Below are positions 22,244 to 30,565 of a DNA stretch of 36,802 nt, in pieces. This DNA comes from an uncultured Holophagaceae bacterium. Its GTDB lineage: Bacteria > Acidobacteriota > Holophagae > Holophagales > Holophagaceae. The stretch lies in NCBI GenBank assembly GCA_903857495.1, contig CAIOFF010000015.1, positions 1 through 36,802 on the forward strand, written 5' to 3'. Each line of letters opens with the position of its first letter. The stretch's first letter is position 1. Position numbers and translations under genes: made by a program. Below the pieces are notes generated by a model, which saw nothing but the letters and a program-made list of their open reading frames with translations, made no database searches and had not been told where the DNA came from.

Positions 22244-22735
22244 TAGCAAAAGGCAAGTCAGCCACCGATGAAGGCTGCTATACACCGCTGCAAGCCAAAA
22301 GCAAATCAGCCACCGATGAACACCGATGAACACCGATAAAAGCATGATGAAAAACACGTCCTGGTAATCGGCCTTGCTCCGCCAAATTTGGCCTTCAAAG
22401 ATCTCCACCAAGGACACGAAGAACGACCCCGAAGGACCACGAAGGCGCAGTCATCGCGCCGACTCATCCTCTGCATGGGCCCGCCTGCGGCGGCTTCCGG
22501 CGGCGCCGGAAGTCATCCCGGGGTGCCACGGCCGCGCCCCCCAAATGGCGCGACAGTGTCACCCCGAGATGGAGCCCATGCACCGGTGCCGATGAACCCC
22601 AGCATCTTTATCCCCGTTCATCCCTTTGATCCCCGTCAAAGGCCTTTGGACTCGAAGCAAATATATAACATAAGTATTTTCCTTATCATCTTTTAATCAG
22701 CTTTTATCGGTGTTCATCGGTGGCCAATCTTTTCT
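22244..22735. other. Non-coding repeat mosaic between convergent glxK and lysR genes
   Basis: This 492-base stretch has no credible gene. Besides element C it contains fragments of two other repeat classes: an ACCACGAAG-like stretch at about 22405-22446, and a GGGGATGAA-like right arm at about 22600-22642 whose complement closely resembles the CACCGATGAA units of element C. A direct repeat of about 20 bases (AGTCAGCCACCGATGAA and AATCAGCCACCGATGAA) occurs at about 22255-22272 and 22304-22320. The segment from 22640 to 22700 is unusually A+T-rich. Confidence 0.6.
22309..22724. repeat. Inverted short-unit repeat element C (CACCGATGAA units), arms far apart
   Basis: Left arm 22309-22343 has three tandem 10-mers (CACCGATGAA twice, then CACCGATAAA) flanked by GC and AGC. 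The right arm 22700-22724 is the exact inverted copy of the left arm minus one 10-mer. The arms are about 356 bases apart, and the space between is filled with other decayed repeat pieces, as if later elements had inserted. The right arm ends 12 bases past the lysR stop, and a further unit near 22262 lies close to the glycerate kinase stop. Confidence 0.85.
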
Positions 22736-23641
22736 TTATTTCGCCTCTGCCACAGGGACGGCCTTCAGCTGCTCGCGGACGTGCTGGAAGAAGGCCTTCT
22801 CGGCGGCGCTGAGGTGCCGGGCGGGGTTCCACACCAGGTGGGAGGAGATCCGGATCTCGGGGCCATCCCAGTGCAGGGCCACCAGGGTGCCGGCCCGGAG
22901 CTCGGCTTCCACGGCCATCCGCGGCAGGGGGGCGACGCCCAGGCCCTCCATCACGCAGCGCTTGATGGTCTCCACGCCCTGGAACTCGGTGAAGTCCCCG
23001 GGGTGGGCCCCGGCGGTGATGAGCTGCCGCTCGAACTGGTTGCGGTAGCTGCAGCCCAGGGCCTTGAGCAGGACCTCCTCGCCCATGAGGTCCTGGGCGG
23101 AGACGTTGGGGGCGAAAGCCAGCCGGTGGGAGGGGGCGGCCAGGATGAGGATCTCCTCGTCCCGCAGCCGCTCCACGGCCAGGGTCTTCGAGGGGAAGGG
23201 CTCCTCCAGGATGAAGGCGAAGTCCACGGCGCCCTCCAGCACCTGGCGCTTGAAGTCCCGCACGAAACCCGGCTGGAACTGGAGCCGAACCCGGGGAAAC
23301 TTCGCCCGGAAGGTCCGGAGGAGGGGGGGCAGCAGGTAGGTGCAGACGGACTCGGGTCCTGTGAAGCGGAGGGTGCCCACGCCCTCCTCCTCGAGGACCG
23401 AAGCCTTCGCCTCGTGGGTCAGCGATAGGATGCGCTCCGCATACACCAGGAACCGCGCCCCGGGCTCCGTCAGCTCCAGGCGGTTGCCCACCCGGTTGAA
23501 CAGGTCCGTCCCCAGGTCCTCCTCCAGGCTCTTGATCTGGGCCGTGACGCTGGACTGCGCATAACCTAGGCCAGTGGCGGCGTGGGTGAAGTTCAGCGTC
23601 CGGGCGGCGGCGCAGAAGGTGGAGAGCGTGCGGACATCCAT
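22736..23641 (-). CDS. LysR-family transcriptional regulator
   Basis: A 301-residue DNA-binding regulator. The N-terminal winged helix-turn-helix (about 1-60) reads MDVRTLSTFCAAARTLNFTH, then GYAQSSVTAQIKSLEEDLG and LFNRVGNRLELTEPG, a standard LysR pattern. Residues 90-295 are the effector-binding fold. The frame is open to 23686, but the family start is at 23641; the shorter start also frees the palindromes at 23661-23687 to be intergenic. It is transcribed away from the second LctP permease gene, the usual arrangement for a LysR regulator that controls its divergent neighbour and itself. The effector is unknown; glycolate, lactate or glyoxylate are reasonable candidates from context. Confidence 0.93.
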   Translation of the reverse strand: MDVRTLSTFCAAARTLNFTHAATGLGYAQSSVTAQIKSLEEDLGTDLFNRVGNRLELTEPGARFLVYAERILSLTHEAKASVLEEEGVGTLRFTGPESVCTYLLPPLLRTFRAKFPRVRLQFQPGFVRDFKRQVLEGAVDFAFILEEPFPSKTLAVERLRDEEILILAAPSHRLAFAPNVSAQDLMGEEVLLKALGCSYRNQFERQLITAGAHPGDFTEFQGVETIKRCVMEGLGVAPLPRMAVEAELRAGTLVALHWDGPEIRISSHLVWNPARHLSAAEKAFFQHVREQLKAVPVAEAK

Positions 23642-23660
23642 GGCCCGTAGTCTACCGGCT

Positions 23661-23687
23661 GCATCGGAAAACCCGATGCTAAGCATC
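23661..23687. promoter_or_regulatory. Overlapping palindromes, probable LysR operator
   Basis: GCATCGG (23661-23667) and CCGATGC (23673-23679) are perfect inverted copies five bases apart. The second arm overlaps another perfect palindrome, GATGC-TAA-GCATC (23675-23687). They lie 20-46 bases upstream of the lysR start codon. LysR regulators usually bind interrupted palindromes near their own promoter, so this is the best operator candidate. Confidence 0.6.
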
Positions 23688-23746
23688 AGAAATTACCATC
23701 TGGTCAAGAATCAGGGGTCACGGAAGATTGGAATTTCAGGATTCAC

Positions 23747-23766
23747 GCATCGACTTTGTCCGATGC
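23747..23766. promoter_or_regulatory. Second GCATCG/CGATGC palindrome upstream of the permease gene
   Basis: GCATCG (23747-23752) and CGATGC (23761-23766) repeat the same half-sites as the palindrome at 23661-23679, with an eight-base spacer. This copy is 34 bases before the permease start, so it would lie near or downstream of the permease promoter. Two related sites about 87 bases apart suit a recruitment site and an activation site or a DNA loop. Confidence 0.5.
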
Positions 23767-23799
23767 TCCTCCCTCACCGTTCCGTTGAAAGGTCATCCC

Positions 23800-25461
23800 A
23801 TGCCCTGGAATCAGAACTACGCTGCGTTGAACGGGAGCCTCCTGCTGACGGCCCTCGTGGTGGCCATTCCCATCTTCTTCCTGTTCTGGGCCCTGGCGGT
23901 CAAGCGGATGAAGGGCCATGTGGCGGGCCTGCTCACCCTGGCCCTCACCATCGTTATCAGCGTCGTGGTCTACCGCATGCCCATCACCGCAGCGCTCTCG
24001 GCCTCGGCCCTGGGCATGCTGACGGGCCTGTTCCCCATCGGCTGGATCATCCTGACGGCAGTGTTCCTGTTCAACCTGACCGTCGAGTCGGGCCAGTTCG
24101 AGGTCATCAAGAGCTCCATCTCCTCCCTGTCCCCGGATCGTCGCATCCAGGCCCTGCTGATTGCTTTCTCGTTCTCTGCCTTCATGGAGGGCGTGGCCGG
24201 CCAGGGCGCCCCCGTGGCCGTGGCTGCGGCCATGCTCATCGGCCTCGGCTTCCCGCCGCTGACCGCAGCCGTCATCTGCCTCGTGGCCAACACGCCCCCC
24301 GTGCCCTTCGGCCCCGTGGGTGTGCCCACGATCATGATGTCGACCGTGACCGGGATTCCCGCCACCACCATGGCCCGCGCCGTGGGCATCGACATGGCCC
24401 TCATGGCCCTGATCATCCCCTTCTTCATGGTGGTGGTCATGGTGGGCTTCCAGAAGGCCAAGGAAGTGCTGCCCGCGGCCCTGGTGGCGGGTGTCAGTTA
24501 CGCCGCGGCCTCCCTGGTGCTCTCTACCTGGTTCGGGCCCGAGCTGCCGGCCATCACCGCTTCGGTGGTGTCGCTCGTCTGCCTCGTGGGCTTCATCAAG
24601 ATCTGGCAGCCCAAGACCATCTGGACCTTCGAGAACGATGCGGCGGACGCGACCGCCAACGCCACCGCCCACACCGCGGGTCAGGTCTTCAAGGCCTGGT
24701 CGCCCTTCCTCATCCTCATGGTCGTCATGGGCATCTGGGGTACCCCCGCCTTCAAGGCCTATGCCGAGAAGACCCACCACTGGTTCCTGGCCGTGCCCAA
24801 GTGGCCCGGGCTGGACGGCATCGTCTTCAAGGCCGCGCCCATCGTCGCCAAGCCCGCCGCCTACGCCGCCAGCTACAAGTGGCAGTACCTCACGGCCCCC
24901 GGCACAGCGATGTTCCTCTCCGCCCTGCTCTCCATGGTCGTGCTGAAGATCTCCCCCGCCATCGGCGCCCGGGTGTTCGCCAAGACCTTCATGCAGCTGC
25001 GCTTCGCCCTCATCACCCTGGCCTCGGTCATCGGCCTCGGCTTCCTGGCCAACTACTCGGGCATGTCCTTCACCCTGGGTCTGGCCATGGCGGTGCTCAC
25101 GGGCATGGCCTTCCCCATCTTCAGCCCGATCATCGGCCTCATTGGCGTGTTCCTCACGGGCTCGGTGACCTCGTCGGCGGCCCTGTTCGGCAAGCTCCAG
25201 CAGGTCACGGCCATCCAGCTGGGCCTGAACCCCGTGCTCACCACCTCGGCGAACCTCTTCGGCGGGGTCATGGGCAAGCTCATCTCCCCCCAGTCCATCG
25301 CCGTGGCCTGCGCGGCCGTGGGCCTGGTGGGCAAGGAAACCGATATTTTCCGAAAGACCCTCAAGTATTCGATGATCCTGCTGGGTATGGTGATAGTCAT
25401 CATCCTCTTGCAAGCCTTTGTCATGCCCTGGATCTTGCCCACCGCGCCGGTCGTGAGTTGA
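23800..25461 (+). CDS. LctP-family hydroxy-acid permease (second copy, possibly glycolate permease)
   Basis: A 553-residue inner-membrane permease paralogous to the one at 19433. Hallmarks: FSFSAFMEGVAGQGAPVAVAAAMLIGLG, CLVANTPPVPFGPVGVPT, FLTGSVTSSAALFGKLQ and GKLISPQSIAVACAAVGL. Where the first copy has ICGFGAP this one has VAGQGAP, so substrate choice may differ. Start at 23800, with AAAGG eight bases upstream; the longer frame from 23728 has no ribosome site and lacks family similarity. The gene is divergent from lysR and precedes malate synthase. In E. coli an LctP-family permease (GlcA) accompanies malate synthase G in glycolate use, so glycolate is the leading guess. Confidence 0.92.
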   Translation: MPWNQNYAALNGSLLLTALVVAIPIFFLFWALAVKRMKGHVAGLLTLALTIVISVVVYRMPITAALSASALGMLTGLFPIGWIILTAVFLFNLTVESGQFEVIKSSISSLSPDRRIQALLIAFSFSAFMEGVAGQGAPVAVAAAMLIGLGFPPLTAAVICLVANTPPVPFGPVGVPTIMMSTVTGIPATTMARAVGIDMALMALIIPFFMVVVMVGFQKAKEVLPAALVAGVSYAAASLVLSTWFGPELPAITASVVSLVCLVGFIKIWQPKTIWTFENDAADATANATAHTAGQVFKAWSPFLILMVVMGIWGTPAFKAYAEKTHHWFLAVPKWPGLDGIVFKAAPIVAKPAAYAASYKWQYLTAPGTAMFLSALLSMVVLKISPAIGARVFAKTFMQLRFALITLASVIGLGFLANYSGMSFTLGLAMAVLTGMAFPIFSPIIGLIGVFLTGSVTSSAALFGKLQQVTAIQLGLNPVLTTSANLFGGVMGKLISPQSIAVACAAVGLVGKETDIFRKTLKYSMILLGMVIVIILLQAFVMPWILPTAPVVS

Positions 25462-25473
25462 CCGCCCAGGCGG
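25462..25473. terminator. Short G+C hairpin after the second permease gene
   Basis: CCGCC (25462-25466) and GGCGG (25469-25473) are inverted copies starting right after the stop codon. The two-base loop is too small unless the stem opens by a pair, and no T-run follows directly, so termination here would be weak. Confidence 0.2.
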
Positions 25474-25522
25474 CATGAGTTAATCAAGTATTTTCCCCCC
25501 TTTATGGCACATGAAAACCAGG

Positions 25523-25554
25523 GAAGCGCCTAATCAGCGGGTGCTTCTCTTTTT
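25523..25554 (+). terminator. Terminator-like hairpin adjoining the malate synthase ribosome site (possible attenuator)
   Basis: GAAGCGCC (25523-25530) can pair with GGTGCTTC (25540-25547) over eight base pairs, one of them G-U, with a nine-base loop. TCTTTTT follows directly at 25548-25554, which is the form of an intrinsic terminator. The next base begins the AGGAG ribosome site of malate synthase (start 25566). A terminator this close to a start codon means either that transcripts from the permease gene end here or that the leader is regulated by antitermination. Confidence 0.6.
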
Positions 25555-25565
25555 AGGAGCTAGAA

Positions 25566-27440
25566 ATGACCCTCACCCTGGAATTCCGCGACGCGGTCCT
25601 GGCGGCCTATCCCGATGTCTACACCCCGGCGGCCCTGGCGGCCCTGGAGGTGCTGGCGCCCCTCAACCACCGCCGCCACGAGCGGATGGCGGCCCGCACC
25701 GCCCTGCGCAAGCGGCGCGCGGGGCAGGGTGAGCGGATCAGCTTCCTGGATCCCGAGTCCCTCATCCCGGGGACCCAGATCAAGGTGGCCGACGCCCGGT
25801 CCGGCAACTTCGACGGCGCCATCATCCCCCCGGACCTCCAGCGCCAGTGGATCCAGGGTACGGGTCCCGCCACCAAGCCGCGCTCGGATGTGCGCTCGGG
25901 CATCCGCAACGTGGCCTACGCGCTGCTCTCCGGCGCCGACGGCTGGATGTTCGACGGCGAGGACGCCTTGGGCCAGGTGGACACCATGTCCCTGGACAAC
26001 CACCGCAACCTCAAGCTGGCCATCGACCGGGATCCGCTCTTCCTGGAGGTCGCCCAGGAGGTGGCCGGGGAGATGAACACCTGGGCCCAGGGCTTCCTCG
26101 GGCGGCCCATCATCGCCGACTGGCGTCAGCAGCTGGACTTCACCACCGTCATCTTCCGCTGCCGGGGCCTGCACCTGGATGACCGGCACATCCGCCAGGA
26201 CGGCCACGGCTTCTCGGCCTCCCTCTCGGACCTGGTGCTGTTCGTGGTGAACAACCACGAGCGCCTCCTCGCCACGGGCCGCAGCATCGTCATCTACCTG
26301 CCCAAGACCCAGACCGCCGAGGACGCGGCCCTGTGGAACAGCTTCATCCTGGCCCTGGAAGCCCACCTGAGCCTGCCCGTGGGCACCATCAAGTGCTACG
26401 TGCTGGTGGAGCAGCTGGAGCAGTGCTTCCAGCTCATGGAGATCCGCGCCGCCCTGTCCCCGCACTTCGTGGGCTTCAACACCGGCCGCTGGGACTACAT
26501 CAACAGTGTCTCGGACGCGCTGGCCTGGGACCAGGAGTTCGTCAATCCCAACATCCAGGCCATCACCATGACCTACGGCTACATGCGCAACTACGAGGAT
26601 CGCGTCCGCCGGGCCATGAACACGCCGGATCGCAACGGCCGCTGTACCCTCTGGCAGGGCGGCATGGAACCCAACATCCCCGTGGGCTCGGCCGAGGGCG
26701 TGGCCGCCAGCATGAAGCGGGCCGTGGCCGGGGCCGAGCGTGAGCAGCGCGAGGGTGCCTCCGGCAAGTGGGTGGCCCACTGGAAGATGGTCCACATCGT
26801 CCGGCCGGTGTGGGAGAAGGTGGGCCAGGCCAACCAGCTGGGCCGAGCCTTCCCGGCCCTGACCTATGGACCCGCGGATGCCGCCGGTCTCATGCTGCTC
26901 GAGCCCGCTCCTCGCACCATCGCCGGCGCCCGGGACCTGCTCTCCGTGGCCCTGCAGTACGGCAATGCCTTCCTGCGGGGCTTCCAGGCCGCCGCGCTGA
27001 AGCCTGCGGACTTCTTCGGCAACGACGACGTCCTCTACCTCATGGAGGACATGGCCACGGGCGAGATCCGCCTGTCCATCCTCTGGGAGTGGATCCACAA
27101 GGGCGCCGTCCTCACCGAGGCCGATGCCGAGACCGGCTGCGCCGCCGGGGAGGCCTTCACCCCGGCCCTCTTCGCCCGCCTGCTGGAAGAGGAATACGCC
27201 AAGCTCCGCAAGGCCGGCAATCGCGACGTCCACGACGACTCCAAGGACACCACCCTGCCCATCGCCCGGGCCATCGTGCAGACCTACGTCCAGAGCCCCC
27301 TCAAGGCCCCCTGGTACGTGGACCTGCTGAACCTCAACCTCGGCCTCGAGGACCTCAAGACCGCCGAAGCCCGCATCGCCCACTACCTCGAAGCCTTCAA
27401 GAAAGACGGCACCCGCCTCACCGAGAACCAGGACTTCTAG
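25566..27440 (+). CDS. Malate synthase A
   Basis: Condenses glyoxylate with acetyl-CoA to malate, the second step of the glyoxylate bypass and the entry point for glycolate-derived glyoxylate. The 624-residue protein shows family A motifs: WMFDGEDAL (127-135), NTGRWDYI (305-312, as in AceB), QAITMTYGYMRNY (331-343), QGGMEPNIPV (364-373) and GKWVAHWKMVH (400-410). E. coli AceB has 533 residues, so this form is about 90 longer. The start follows AGGAG at a normal distance and is preceded by a terminator-like hairpin. No isocitrate lyase gene is in the window, so feeding from glycolate imported by the adjacent LctP permease is a sensible reading. Ends before a triple repeat array. Confidence 0.93.
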   Translation: MTLTLEFRDAVLAAYPDVYTPAALAALEVLAPLNHRRHERMAARTALRKRRAGQGERISFLDPESLIPGTQIKVADARSGNFDGAIIPPDLQRQWIQGTGPATKPRSDVRSGIRNVAYALLSGADGWMFDGEDALGQVDTMSLDNHRNLKLAIDRDPLFLEVAQEVAGEMNTWAQGFLGRPIIADWRQQLDFTTVIFRCRGLHLDDRHIRQDGHGFSASLSDLVLFVVNNHERLLATGRSIVIYLPKTQTAEDAALWNSFILALEAHLSLPVGTIKCYVLVEQLEQCFQLMEIRAALSPHFVGFNTGRWDYINSVSDALAWDQEFVNPNIQAITMTYGYMRNYEDRVRRAMNTPDRNGRCTLWQGGMEPNIPVGSAEGVAASMKRAVAGAEREQREGASGKWVAHWKMVHIVRPVWEKVGQANQLGRAFPALTYGPADAAGLMLLEPAPRTIAGARDLLSVALQYGNAFLRGFQAAALKPADFFGNDDVLYLMEDMATGEIRLSILWEWIHKGAVLTEADAETGCAAGEAFTPALFARLLEEEYAKLRKAGNRDVHDDSKDTTLPIARAIVQTYVQSPLKAPWYVDLLNLNLGLEDLKTAEARIAHYLEAFKKDGTRLTENQDF

Positions 27441-27463
27441 GCACTTCTCGACGAAAGGACTTT

Positions 27464-27541
27464 CACCACGAAGACAGGAAGACCACGAAGAAGCAGACGG
27501 GCTGGCCGTCTTCCTTCGTGGTCTTTGTGGTCTTCGTGGTT
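27464..27541. repeat. Inverted short-unit repeat element D1 (ACCACGAAG units)
   Basis: The left arm begins CACCACGAAG at 27464 and contains a second ACCACGAAG at 27482-27490. The right arm, about 27508-27540, is three inverted units (CTTCGTGG, CTTTGTGG, CTTCGTGG). It starts 24 bases after the malate synthase stop. Confidence 0.85.
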
Positions 27542-27562
27542 CCTGTTTTTCTGAAAAAGGGA

Positions 27563-27650
27563 TTAACCACAAAGGACACAAAGGACACAAAGAAAAGAAG
27601 GGGCGGGAACTGAAAGTCCTTCTTTGTGCTCTTTGTGTTCTTTGTGGTTC
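27563..27650. repeat. Inverted short-unit repeat element D2 (ACCACAAAG units)
   Basis: The left arm starts TTAACCACAAAG at 27563 and continues with GACACAAAG units to about 27592. The right arm, about 27616-27650, is the inverted counterpart ending CTTTGTGGTTC. Units match elements B and F, not its neighbours D1 and D3. Confidence 0.85.
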
Positions 27651-27671
27651 AGATTTTCCTGAAAAGATGGG

Positions 27672-27751
27672 TTCACCACGAAGACAGGAAGACCACGAAG
27701 AAGACGGGCTGGTTTGTCTTCCTTCGTGGTCTTTGTGGTCTTCGTGGTGAC
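27672..27751. repeat. Inverted short-unit repeat element D3, near copy of D1
   Basis: The left arm starts TTCACCACGAAG at 27672 and the right arm ends CTTCGTGGTGA at about 27751, directly against the stop of the ligase-peptidase fusion gene. Sequence is nearly the same as D1, including the AGACAGGAAG variant unit in the left arm, so one is probably a copy of the other. Confidence 0.85.
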
Positions 27752-30565
27752 TTAGCTCTTCTTCAGCTCCGCCGCGAAGGCGTCCAGGGCGCGGTAGTAG
27801 GGGTCGATGCTGGGGATGTAGTGGCGCTCGCTGGCGGCGTGGGGGCCGATGCCGGTCTGGCCCCAGACCACGCCTTGGCCGCCGGGGGCGAAGCGGGCGG
27901 AGGTGCCGGCGCCCTTGCGGCCGATGCGGACGTCACCGCCCGCGGCCTCGATGCCGGCCAGCAGGGCCTTGAGGCAGGGGTTCTCGGCGTCGCAGGCCAC
28001 GCCGGCTTCCCAGGCGGAGGGGATGAACTCCAGCTCGCGCTCGGCGGCCAGGGCCTCGATGTCGGCGCGCATCTTGGAGACGTCGTCCTGGGGGATGGGC
28101 CGGATCTCGACGCCGATGGCGCCGCGGTCCGCGGTGATGTTGAAGATGCCGGGCGTGCCCACCTGGACGTAGGCGAAGCGGGCCAGGGACTGCCAGCCGT
28201 CCGCGGACTTGAGGGTGAGGTGCTTGGCGAACAGCTCGCGCAGGGCCTCGCGGGCGCTGAGCACGCGCTCGGTCAGGTCGGTGCCGCCGGCCAGCCCGCT
28301 GTGGCCGCGGGTGCCGTGGGCGATGAGCTCGAAGCGCAGGACGCCGCGGTTCTGGGTGCAGACCTCGCCCCAGAGCTCGGTGCCCTTCTCGCCCGTGCGC
28401 TCGCCAGCCACGAAGAAGCTGGGCTCATACCCGTCCCACTGCTCCTTCAGCTGCTGCAGCACGTGCGGGGTGCCCATGGGGTCCAGCTCGCCATTCTCCT
28501 CGTTGCCCACCAGCAGCAGATTCACGGGGGGGTAGGGCGCGCCCTTTTTGAGGGTGTCCTTCATCCAGACGAGGTAGGTGGAGACCACGGTCTTCATGTC
28601 TGCGGCGCCGCGGCCCCAGAGGTAGTCGCCCTCGATGCGGGGGTCGAACTGGCTGTCATCGGGCTCCGGCGCCACCACGTCGAAGTGCCCGCAGAGCATG
28701 GCCGGGGCCTTTTCGCCGCCGGGGAAGTGGGCCAGCAGGGAAGGGAAGGGGCCCTGGTCGAAGCTCACCACGGGCACGCCGTGGTTGCGCAGGTAGTCGT
28801 AGATGAGGGTGGCCGCACGGTGGATCTCGGGCAGGCGCTCCTCGGGGCAGGCGGTGACGCTGGGGATGCGCACCAGGCGCTGGGACATGGCCAGCACTTC
28901 GCTGGTCTTGTCGGGATACGTCGCATCCACCAGGGCCTCGGGCTTGGGGCGGAAGCGGATGGGTGCCTGGGGATCTGTGTGCACTTCCTCGCGGGCATGC
29001 TCCAGGAAGTCCCGGAGCTTGCCTTCTTCCTTGCCGAGGTCGGAGAGGTGGGCCGTGACGGTCTGGACGTCGCCGCGCACCTGATCCTTGCGGGCCTCGG
29101 CCAGGGCGACCAGCATGTCGGGGGGCACGATCTCGGAGGTGCCCAGCTTGCTCTTGAGGTGCTGGCGGATGCGCTCGGCGGTGCTGGGGGCGCCCTCGGC
29201 CATGTCGCGGAGGGGCTGCAGGTCCTCCCACATGCCCAGGGCCTCGGCCAGGGGGCGCAGCTCGCTGAGCGTCCAGGCCAGGAAGGCGCGCATGGTGATG
29301 GGCTTGGCAGTGAGGGGGTTCTCGATGGTGGCGCGCAGGCCCTCCCGGGCCGCCAGTTCTTCGTTGCGGCGGGCCCGCTTGATGTCCTCGGCATCGTAGC
29401 GGAAGCTCCGGGCGAAGTCGGAGTCGGCGTAGAAGCGGAGCAGCAGCAGGTGCTTCAGGGTGAGGTTCGCGACGTCCAGGGCCAGGTCGTGGCAGGGATC
29501 ATCGGTGCGGACTTCCACACGGGCCATGGGCAGGTCGATTCGGGCGAAGAGGTTCTGGCGCTCGATCTGGGCCGCCATGTCCTCGACGTTCCGCGTCTCG
29601 CCGGCGGCGAACAGGCCCCGGGCATAGATGTCGTGCAGCTGGTCGCTGGTGACCTGGATGAGGCGCTCCACCGGCTCCGCCTGGGAGCGGGCGCGGACGG
29701 GGATCCAGTTGTTGTTGCCGAAGCGCACGCCCCGGCGCACCAGGTCGTAGGACAGGCGCAGGTAGTCCGGGTGGCTGCGGTTCAGATCCGGCACGTCCAG
29801 GGAGGGCGGGTTGGGGAAGGTCAGGTTGCGCACGGACTCGAAGGGCGTGAGCCGCACCACGGGCTCGCCGTTCTCTTCGGAGGCCTGCAGGGGTGTGCTG
29901 GCGCTGGCGGAGATGAACAGCGCCGCGAAGGCGCGCATGAGCCGCGTGCCGGTGATGTAGACCTGGTTCTTGTAGTCGTCCAGGTGGATCTCGCCGCGTT
30001 CGGAGGCCGGCAGGTGCATGAAGTCCCAGGCCAGCATGGGCTCGGGCAGGCTGAGGTTGGAGTGGGTGCCCGCCGTGGCCAGCTCGGTGCCGTAGAGTTC
30101 CACGCAGCGCTGGAGGTAGCGGCGCTTGGCCAGGTGCCAGGACTCGGGCACGCAGTCGGGGCCGATCTTGGGCAGCACGAGCAGGTTGCCGTGCCAGTAG
30201 TGGATCGGCTCCCCGAAGGCGCGGCTGGTCTTGGCCAGCGCGTTGATGAGGGCCGCTTCCAGCATGCGCCCTTCATACACGGCGCCCTTGGGGGTGTGGT
30301 AGGGCCGGGTGACCCACTCGATCATCCAGTGGAAGACCTCGAGCTGGTGGTATTCCTCGGTCCAGGGCGAGAGCACCTTGGTGCGCAGGTGGTCCACGAA
30401 GGACATGTGGTCAGGGCCGGTGCCCACCGTGAGCAGGGGGCGGAACTGCGGGTCCACCAGGTTCCACTCCAGCTCGAGCCCGCACAGCCCGCCGCCGGGC
30501 CGCGTCTCCAGCGCCGTGCGCCGGGCCAGCTGGAACTTCTCGACGAAGGCATTCAGGTCAAACAC
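27752..30565 (-). CDS. Fusion of glutamate-cysteine-ligase-like domain and M20 metallopeptidase
   Basis: A 937-residue two-domain protein, probably cytosolic (no signal peptide). Residues about 1-450 resemble the GCS2/EgtA-type carboxylate-amine ligase fold: GLELEW (29-34) matches the metal-binding GxExE strand, with further conserved-looking HYWHGN (122-127) and GTHSNLS (166-172). After a helical linker (about 450-545), residues 550-937 form a complete M20 (DapE/ArgE/CPG2) dizinc hydrolase: His627-x-Asp629, Asp656 in GRGAADMK, Glu689-Glu690, Glu722 in GERTG and His909. All expected catalytic and metal residues are there, so both halves look active. The start at 30565 has GGAG five bases upstream. 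I know no characterised protein with this pairing; a ligase that makes and a peptidase that cleaves a glutamyl or acyl amide in one chain is notable. Product not known. Confidence 0.8.
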   Translation of the reverse strand: MFDLNAFVEKFQLARRTALETRPGGGLCGLELEWNLVDPQFRPLLTVGTGPDHMSFVDHLRTKVLSPWTEEYHQLEVFHWMIEWVTRPYHTPKGAVYEGRMLEAALINALAKTSRAFGEPIHYWHGNLLVLPKIGPDCVPESWHLAKRRYLQRCVELYGTELATAGTHSNLSLPEPMLAWDFMHLPASERGEIHLDDYKNQVYITGTRLMRAFAALFISASASTPLQASEENGEPVVRLTPFESVRNLTFPNPPSLDVPDLNRSHPDYLRLSYDLVRRGVRFGNNNWIPVRARSQAEPVERLIQVTSDQLHDIYARGLFAAGETRNVEDMAAQIERQNLFARIDLPMARVEVRTDDPCHDLALDVANLTLKHLLLLRFYADSDFARSFRYDAEDIKRARRNEELAAREGLRATIENPLTAKPITMRAFLAWTLSELRPLAEALGMWEDLQPLRDMAEGAPSTAERIRQHLKSKLGTSEIVPPDMLVALAEARKDQVRGDVQTVTAHLSDLGKEEGKLRDFLEHAREEVHTDPQAPIRFRPKPEALVDATYPDKTSEVLAMSQRLVRIPSVTACPEERLPEIHRAATLIYDYLRNHGVPVVSFDQGPFPSLLAHFPGGEKAPAMLCGHFDVVAPEPDDSQFDPRIEGDYLWGRGAADMKTVVSTYLVWMKDTLKKGAPYPPVNLLLVGNEENGELDPMGTPHVLQQLKEQWDGYEPSFFVAGERTGEKGTELWGEVCTQNRGVLRFELIAHGTRGHSGLAGGTDLTERVLSAREALRELFAKHLTLKSADGWQSLARFAYVQVGTPGIFNITADRGAIGVEIRPIPQDDVSKMRADIEALAAERELEFIPSAWEAGVACDAENPCLKALLAGIEAAGGDVRIGRKGAGTSARFAPGGQGVVWGQTGIGPHAASERHYIPSIDPYYRALDAFAAELKKS

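Follow-up and report, generated by a model that had tools for sequence, protein, structure and literature searches.

The window (the whole 36,802-nucleotide stretch analyzed, which is contig C15 of a 3,695,687-base genome, G000) contains a hairpin and T-run that end directly against the Shine–Dalgarno sequence (SD) of the malate synthase gene aceB. We read this element as a weak, leaky intrinsic terminator between the lctP-type permease gene and aceB, lowering aceB relative to lctP, and put the probability of this at roughly 55%. The likeliest role is that of an ordinary leaky stop between neighboring genes. Its anatomy, its position, its conservation within one small clade and a marginal terminator score are established. 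Polymerase would arrive from the direction of lctP, or else from a promoter that has escaped detection within the 58 nt separating the stem from the lctP stop codon. A partial stop at about 25552–25554 would yield a monocistronic lctP mRNA, and the remaining polymerase would read through into aceB, whose SD is the first bases past the T-run; aceB would thereby be the lower of the two. The contact between T-run and SD would follow from the shortness of the gap and may in itself be without function.

Anatomy and setting of the hairpin

The relatives of the window place it in the Geothrix/Holophagaceae group. Its malate synthase is 99% identical to a homologue from a Holophagaceae metagenome-assembled genome and 82–89% identical to those in records named Geothrix; it scores 242 bits against the malate synthase A equivalog TIGR01344, under the cutoff of 594.5. 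The local order is a LysR-type regulator on the minus strand, the lctP-type permease and aceB (Table 1), with a second LctP-type permease and a glycerate kinase encoded just upstream of these genes. lctP and aceB lie on the same strand with a 104-nt gap in the window and 52 nt in G026 and G032, and it is from spacing only that we infer co-transcription. The region 3′ of aceB (27455–27750) holds long palindromic repeats of the types CCACGAAGAC...GTCTTCGTGG and CCACAAAGGACACAAAG...CTTTGTGTTCTTTGTGG, and similar repeats also occur beside aceB at loci L054 and L084.

Table 1. Positions of the features discussed, in window coordinates unless a contig or locus is named.
Feature	Position	Strand	Basis or remark
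LysR-type regulator, divergent from lctP	22736–23686	-	
lctP-type permease (lactate/glycolate permease family), gene upstream of aceB	23800–25461	+	TIGR00795, 539 bits vs cutoff 341; PF02652
Gap from lctP stop to aceB start, 104 nt	25462–25565	+	no sigma-70-like site listed
Short ORF MAHENQGSA*, 9 codons, stop at stem top/loop	25504–25533	+	start and stop in 4/4 leaders
Hairpin 5′ arm (core 25523–25530)	25520–25531	+	RNAfold
Hairpin 3′ arm (core 25540–25547)	25539–25550	+	RNAfold; in the four-genome clade varies at 25539 (loop-adjacent) only
TTTTT run, predicted 3′-end region	25550–25554	+	sequence; invariant in clade
AGGAG, SD of aceB	25555–25559	+	sequence
aceB, malate synthase, 624 aa	25566–27440	+	PF01274, PF20659
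Hairpin of the C17 TonB-receptor-like gene	L171:1479–1516 (= G000 C17 110833–110870)		loci L180–L191, L222–L230

The core of the hairpin pairs GAAGCGCC with GGTGCTTC in eight pairs, one of them G-U, and is followed in order by TCTTTTT (25548–25554), AGGAG, CTAGAA and the aceB ATG. This agrees with the sequence-only reading, which had described an eight-pair stem and TCTTTTT ending against the AGGAG of malate synthase; these occupy 25523–25559. In the RNAfold model the stem grows to 12 pairs at -18.2 kcal/mol, and hairpin, TTTTT, AGGAG and ATG together span 25520–25568. The folding z varies with the flanks taken, being -3.1 on 25515–25558 and -4.6 on 25519–25554, and the whole 98-nt aceB leader is ordinarily structured (z -0.75, with 42 of 200 shuffles as good). 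With 58 nt between the lctP stop and the stem, ribosomes finishing lctP would not need to cover the hairpin.

The distance from T-run to ATG is 11 nt. No conventional promoter fits there, as had been claimed from the letters, and therefore aceB mRNA must come by read-through. A sigma-70-type scan listed no promoter in the gap between the two genes. It was equally silent at the lctP 5′ end and so has little power.

Predicted terminator strength and conservation among relatives

The predicted hairpin has the anatomy of an intrinsic terminator, namely a GC-containing stem with a T-run directly after it. We scored it by a d'Aubenton-Carafa type formula, whose threshold is 0. The score of 3.8 is just over that threshold and is weak compared with two clear terminators in this genome, which score 27.9 and 20.7; a further one reaches 1.9. 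Among the four clade leaders, three score above 0 (3.8, 8.8 and 8.2) and the fourth scores -7.9. A simple terminator scan of 22600–28000 listed four sites, versus 2.7 in shuffles, and the aceB hairpin is not among them. Our guess is that the scan misses it because the fully extended stem absorbs the first T, leaving four. Custom scripts seeking a hairpin with a T-tail do list it.

The element could also be due to chance, a GC-rich gap folding beside a T-rich stretch without function, which we regard as quite improbable. The aceB score is attained by only 4 of 500 dinucleotide shuffles of the 104-nt gap, and the 22 nt GGTGCTTCTCTTTTTAGGAGCT (25540–25561), comprising the 3′ arm minus its loop-end base, the T-run and the SD, are invariant in all four genomes that carry the leader; both argue against chance. 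In its favor are the ordinary structure of the whole leader and the identity of the gap to G045 (87%) and G037 (86%), which is near that of aceB four-fold sites (86% and 81%). Three of the four substitutions in the 5′ arm preserve the pair, and this is unsurprising because 7 of the 10 possible 5′-arm transitions would do so.

Across the four leaders, 7 of the 12 pairs are invariant, 4 vary on one side with pairing kept and 1 is broken in one of the four sequences; none shows double-sided covariation. Pairing is found in 97.9% of alignment cells, a figure that is favored by taking the structure from one of the aligned sequences; sliding the partners brings it down to 72.9% or less. The stem variation is compatible with a conserved stem and is not proof of one. 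Counting against a terminator, G038, whose aceB protein is 99% identical, has a stem weakened to -12.5 and scores under 0.

A malate synthase match is found in 42 of 47 genus genomes, with a few remote or incomplete ones included. The leader DNA is present in 4 of 77 family genomes (G000, G038, G045 and G037); further matches of the leader query, in G004 and G010, lie inside the aceB coding start only. We compared 39 distinct aceB upstream regions, derived from 62 loci (32 of 80 from the malate synthase search and all 30 from the genus search). Another 10 match rows of the genus search with at least 80% identity, from 9 genomes, have no locus of their own, and several such species are likely among the loci of the malate synthase search. 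The block of hairpin, T5 and SD occurs in 4 of the 39 regions, all from one close clade, and a terminator score above 0 in 3. Part of what would have undone the earlier reading was the lack of a conserved hairpin in relatives; the hairpin is conserved in the nearest three relatives and was not found beyond them.

In 8 of the 39 regions lctP is directly upstream of aceB. The T5 hairpin is present in 4 of these 8 and in 0 of the 31 others, and the 35 regions missing it include the other four with lctP adjacent. Two of those four (L009 and L042, from G036 and G042) carry, at the corresponding position, a strong hairpin without a T-run, abutting the SD at -21.7 (z -5.3) in G036. By eye, this hairpin may be homologous to that of the window, though the gap identity is 0.365. 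Since there is no T-run, termination is not obviously the shared function. The remaining two (L008 and L012, from G032 and G026) have a bare 52-nt gap with no hairpin, like a simple operon. The lctP identities for G036, G042 and G026 were unreliable (stop-anchored reading, unequal lengths) and were left unused. Among the 31 regions without lctP, some (L006, L007 and L092) place a stem of about -15 kcal/mol against the SD with no T-run. A post hoc contrast of 6/8 versus 0/31 (Fisher 8.6e-6) is set aside as evidence, because its cut-off was chosen after ranking, the genomes are related and the stems of L006, L007 and L092 exist. The link between lctP and the hairpin comes from one clade of four related genomes and so represents one or two evolutionary events.

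We considered whether a terminator travels with lctP and rejected it: another gene follows lctP in 7 of 15 high-identity loci, and by eye no such hairpin with T-run is seen there. In these seven relatives (L126 and L128–L133), the lctP ortholog is away from aceB and the next gene follows after about 40 nt; in L126, the one tested against Pfam, it encodes a cupin protein, and the starts in L128–L133 are similar. The leader is also not a repeated element, having no second copy in the genome; the sole other match is 14 bases long (E 3.4). In the Geothrix fermentans group (L016, L017, L021, L022 and L027), several spaced copies of TTGACA lie about 70–140 nt upstream of aceB and are perhaps a regulator-binding or promoter array. 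None of the eight named Geothrix strains in the set, G. fermentans (L017) among them, has the T5 hairpin.

Hairpins against other Shine–Dalgarno sequences

Of 267 predicted starts sampled first, 5 have a hairpin with a T-rich tail within 70 nt, and a pure TTTTT against the SD is found at aceB only. Under lax rules in the same sample, 16 of the 180 co-directional gene ends and 11 of the 122 convergent ones are followed by a hairpin with a T-rich tail. Such signals thus show no excess at the places where termination matters most, and the criterion has little power to discriminate. Counts of a hairpin with at least four T (at least 11 rows against a shuffled mean of 5.2) follow different selection rules and provide no test. 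The pattern TTTTTN0-3AGGAG occurs four times genome-wide and its reversed control three times, and therefore the string itself is not enriched. On inspection, a stem precedes and a plausible start follows three of these four sites, which lie at aceB, at a TonB-receptor-like gene on C17 and at a small ORF on C53. The premise that intrinsic terminators rarely adjoin a start site holds as a frequency, but TTTTTAGGAG is found twice in the genome, both times preceded by a hairpin and followed by a start codon.

The hairpin might instead be an RNA-stability or translation element, protecting an mRNA end between the cistrons or acting as a standby or regulatory structure at the SD, with the T-run incidental. 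This is doubtful in our view. The very stable SD-abutting hairpin that G036 and G042 keep without a T-run supports it, as does the conserved SD-abutting hairpin with variable T-run at the C17 gene in the genus. Against it, the T-run is invariant in all four members of the window clade, and hairpins adjacent to an SD occur at shuffle frequency. In a sample of 759,119 bases with 571 predicted genes, of which 445 have an SD, an SD-abutting hairpin of at least 6 pairs is found at 214 of the 445, versus 225.6 in shuffles; therefore, stems beside SDs are no commoner than chance in this GC-rich genome.

The C17 gene encodes a TonB-receptor-like protein with a carboxypeptidase-regulatory domain (PF13620, PF07715), and the stem GGCCAUC-CGAU-GGUGGCC stands directly before its SD. 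A query of leader and coding start matches 23 of 47 genus genomes, a DNA search that would miss more divergent leaders. After two weak partial matches (G011 and G042) were left out, all 21 leaders that we aligned have the hairpin. Across their 20 distinct rows, pairing holds in 99.3% of cells, and two of the seven pairs are changed on both sides. The pairing percentage is attained by 4, the number of doubly changed cells by 6 and the number of such pairs by 26 of 500 shuffles, which ignore relatedness. The T-run is variable and is lost in several leaders, and no Rfam match is seen for this hairpin at the gathering score. As a functional SD-abutting hairpin, it is a better candidate than that of aceB. 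The C53 small ORF, of unknown kind, has a hairpin, CTTTTT and AGGAGG before its likely start (L173:1471–1513, the same numbers in G000 C53). The T-run is retained in three of the four closest copies, the G000 copy included, and the stem is weaker in one. As the nearest long upstream ORF is divergent, this stem seems not to mark where a neighbor's mRNA ends. One could imagine that the SD-abutting hairpins with or without T-run at aceB, C17 and C53 are a recurrent leader design of the Geothrix group, in which a shared factor chooses between transcription stop at the SD and translation start; we think this highly improbable.

Possible control of read-through, and known systems

Regulated attenuation would have a metabolite, a protein or a ribosome on the short ORF melt the terminator and turn aceB on. 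The position of the hairpin passes a published filter: in the excerpts of PMC2965389 (Genome Biol. 2010) available to us, candidate attenuators lie nearer the downstream than the upstream gene and under 300 nt from it, and the aceB terminator resembles them in its orientation toward the downstream gene and in being nearer to it (11 vs 58 nt). The same excerpts give mean stabilities of -16.5 kcal/mol for 5′ and -20.2 kcal/mol for 3′ terminators, and the aceB hairpin falls between the two. Unlike those attenuators, as excerpted, aceB showed no antiterminator, sensing element or deep conservation. The conserved start and stop of the short ORF also favor attenuation, but its start is preceded by CCCCCCTTT, with no SD, its peptide varies across the four leaders and most codon differences alter the amino acid. 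In the window (-19.9) and G038 (-16.4), the part of the leader that precedes the 3′ arm can adopt a fold that engages the 5′ arm, but the best folds in G045 (-11.1) and G037 (-15.0) use other pairings, and no alternative (antiterminator) fold is common to the best folds of the four leaders. For a riboswitch or other known cis-RNA, the window has 0 Rfam matches at the gathering score; the best for the leader, sbrA, is sub-threshold at 15.3 bits against 45.

Attenuation by a metabolite or protein, one of the candidates raised by the sequence-only reading, thus gains nothing from Rfam at the gathering score or from a shared alternative fold, and the T5 hairpin is missing from most aceB upstream regions. 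The leader alignment it had suggested turned up neither double changes nor a common alternative fold, and the leader was not found outside one clade. We see no positive sign of regulated read-through in the sequence, and judge regulation of this kind to be unlikely. A DNA operator palindrome was also considered and seems less likely: G-U pairs in the window stem break the DNA symmetry and retain the RNA pairing.

The leaky terminator that we favor has parallels. Intrinsic terminators between the cistrons of an operon can set gene ratios. The aceB element is like these in placing a hairpin and T-run between co-directional genes of related metabolism, and unlike them in that its T-run touches the downstream SD and that its read-through is a prediction from sequence. 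The E. coli glc operon combines malate synthase with an LctP-family glycolate permease. The window similarly has an LctP-family permease adjoining malate synthase, along with the second permease and glycerate kinase; it differs in gene order, and the substrate of its permease is a family-level prediction. An archaeal example of intercistronic terminators appears in excerpts of PMC10450193; PMC7815308 and PMC6544118 were consulted as well. Our literature search found no paper combining Geothrix and malate synthase, and in the excerpts of the attenuation and terminator literature among the matches listed, such an arrangement at malate synthase is undescribed.

If read-through were regulated, malate synthase, the glyoxylate-consuming step, would be coupled to permease-mediated uptake, in a phylum that has received little study. 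If the element is a fixed leaky stop, it would be a plain case of ratio-setting inside an operon. When genomes are scanned, the finding of a terminator against an SD does not by itself imply a sensing leader.
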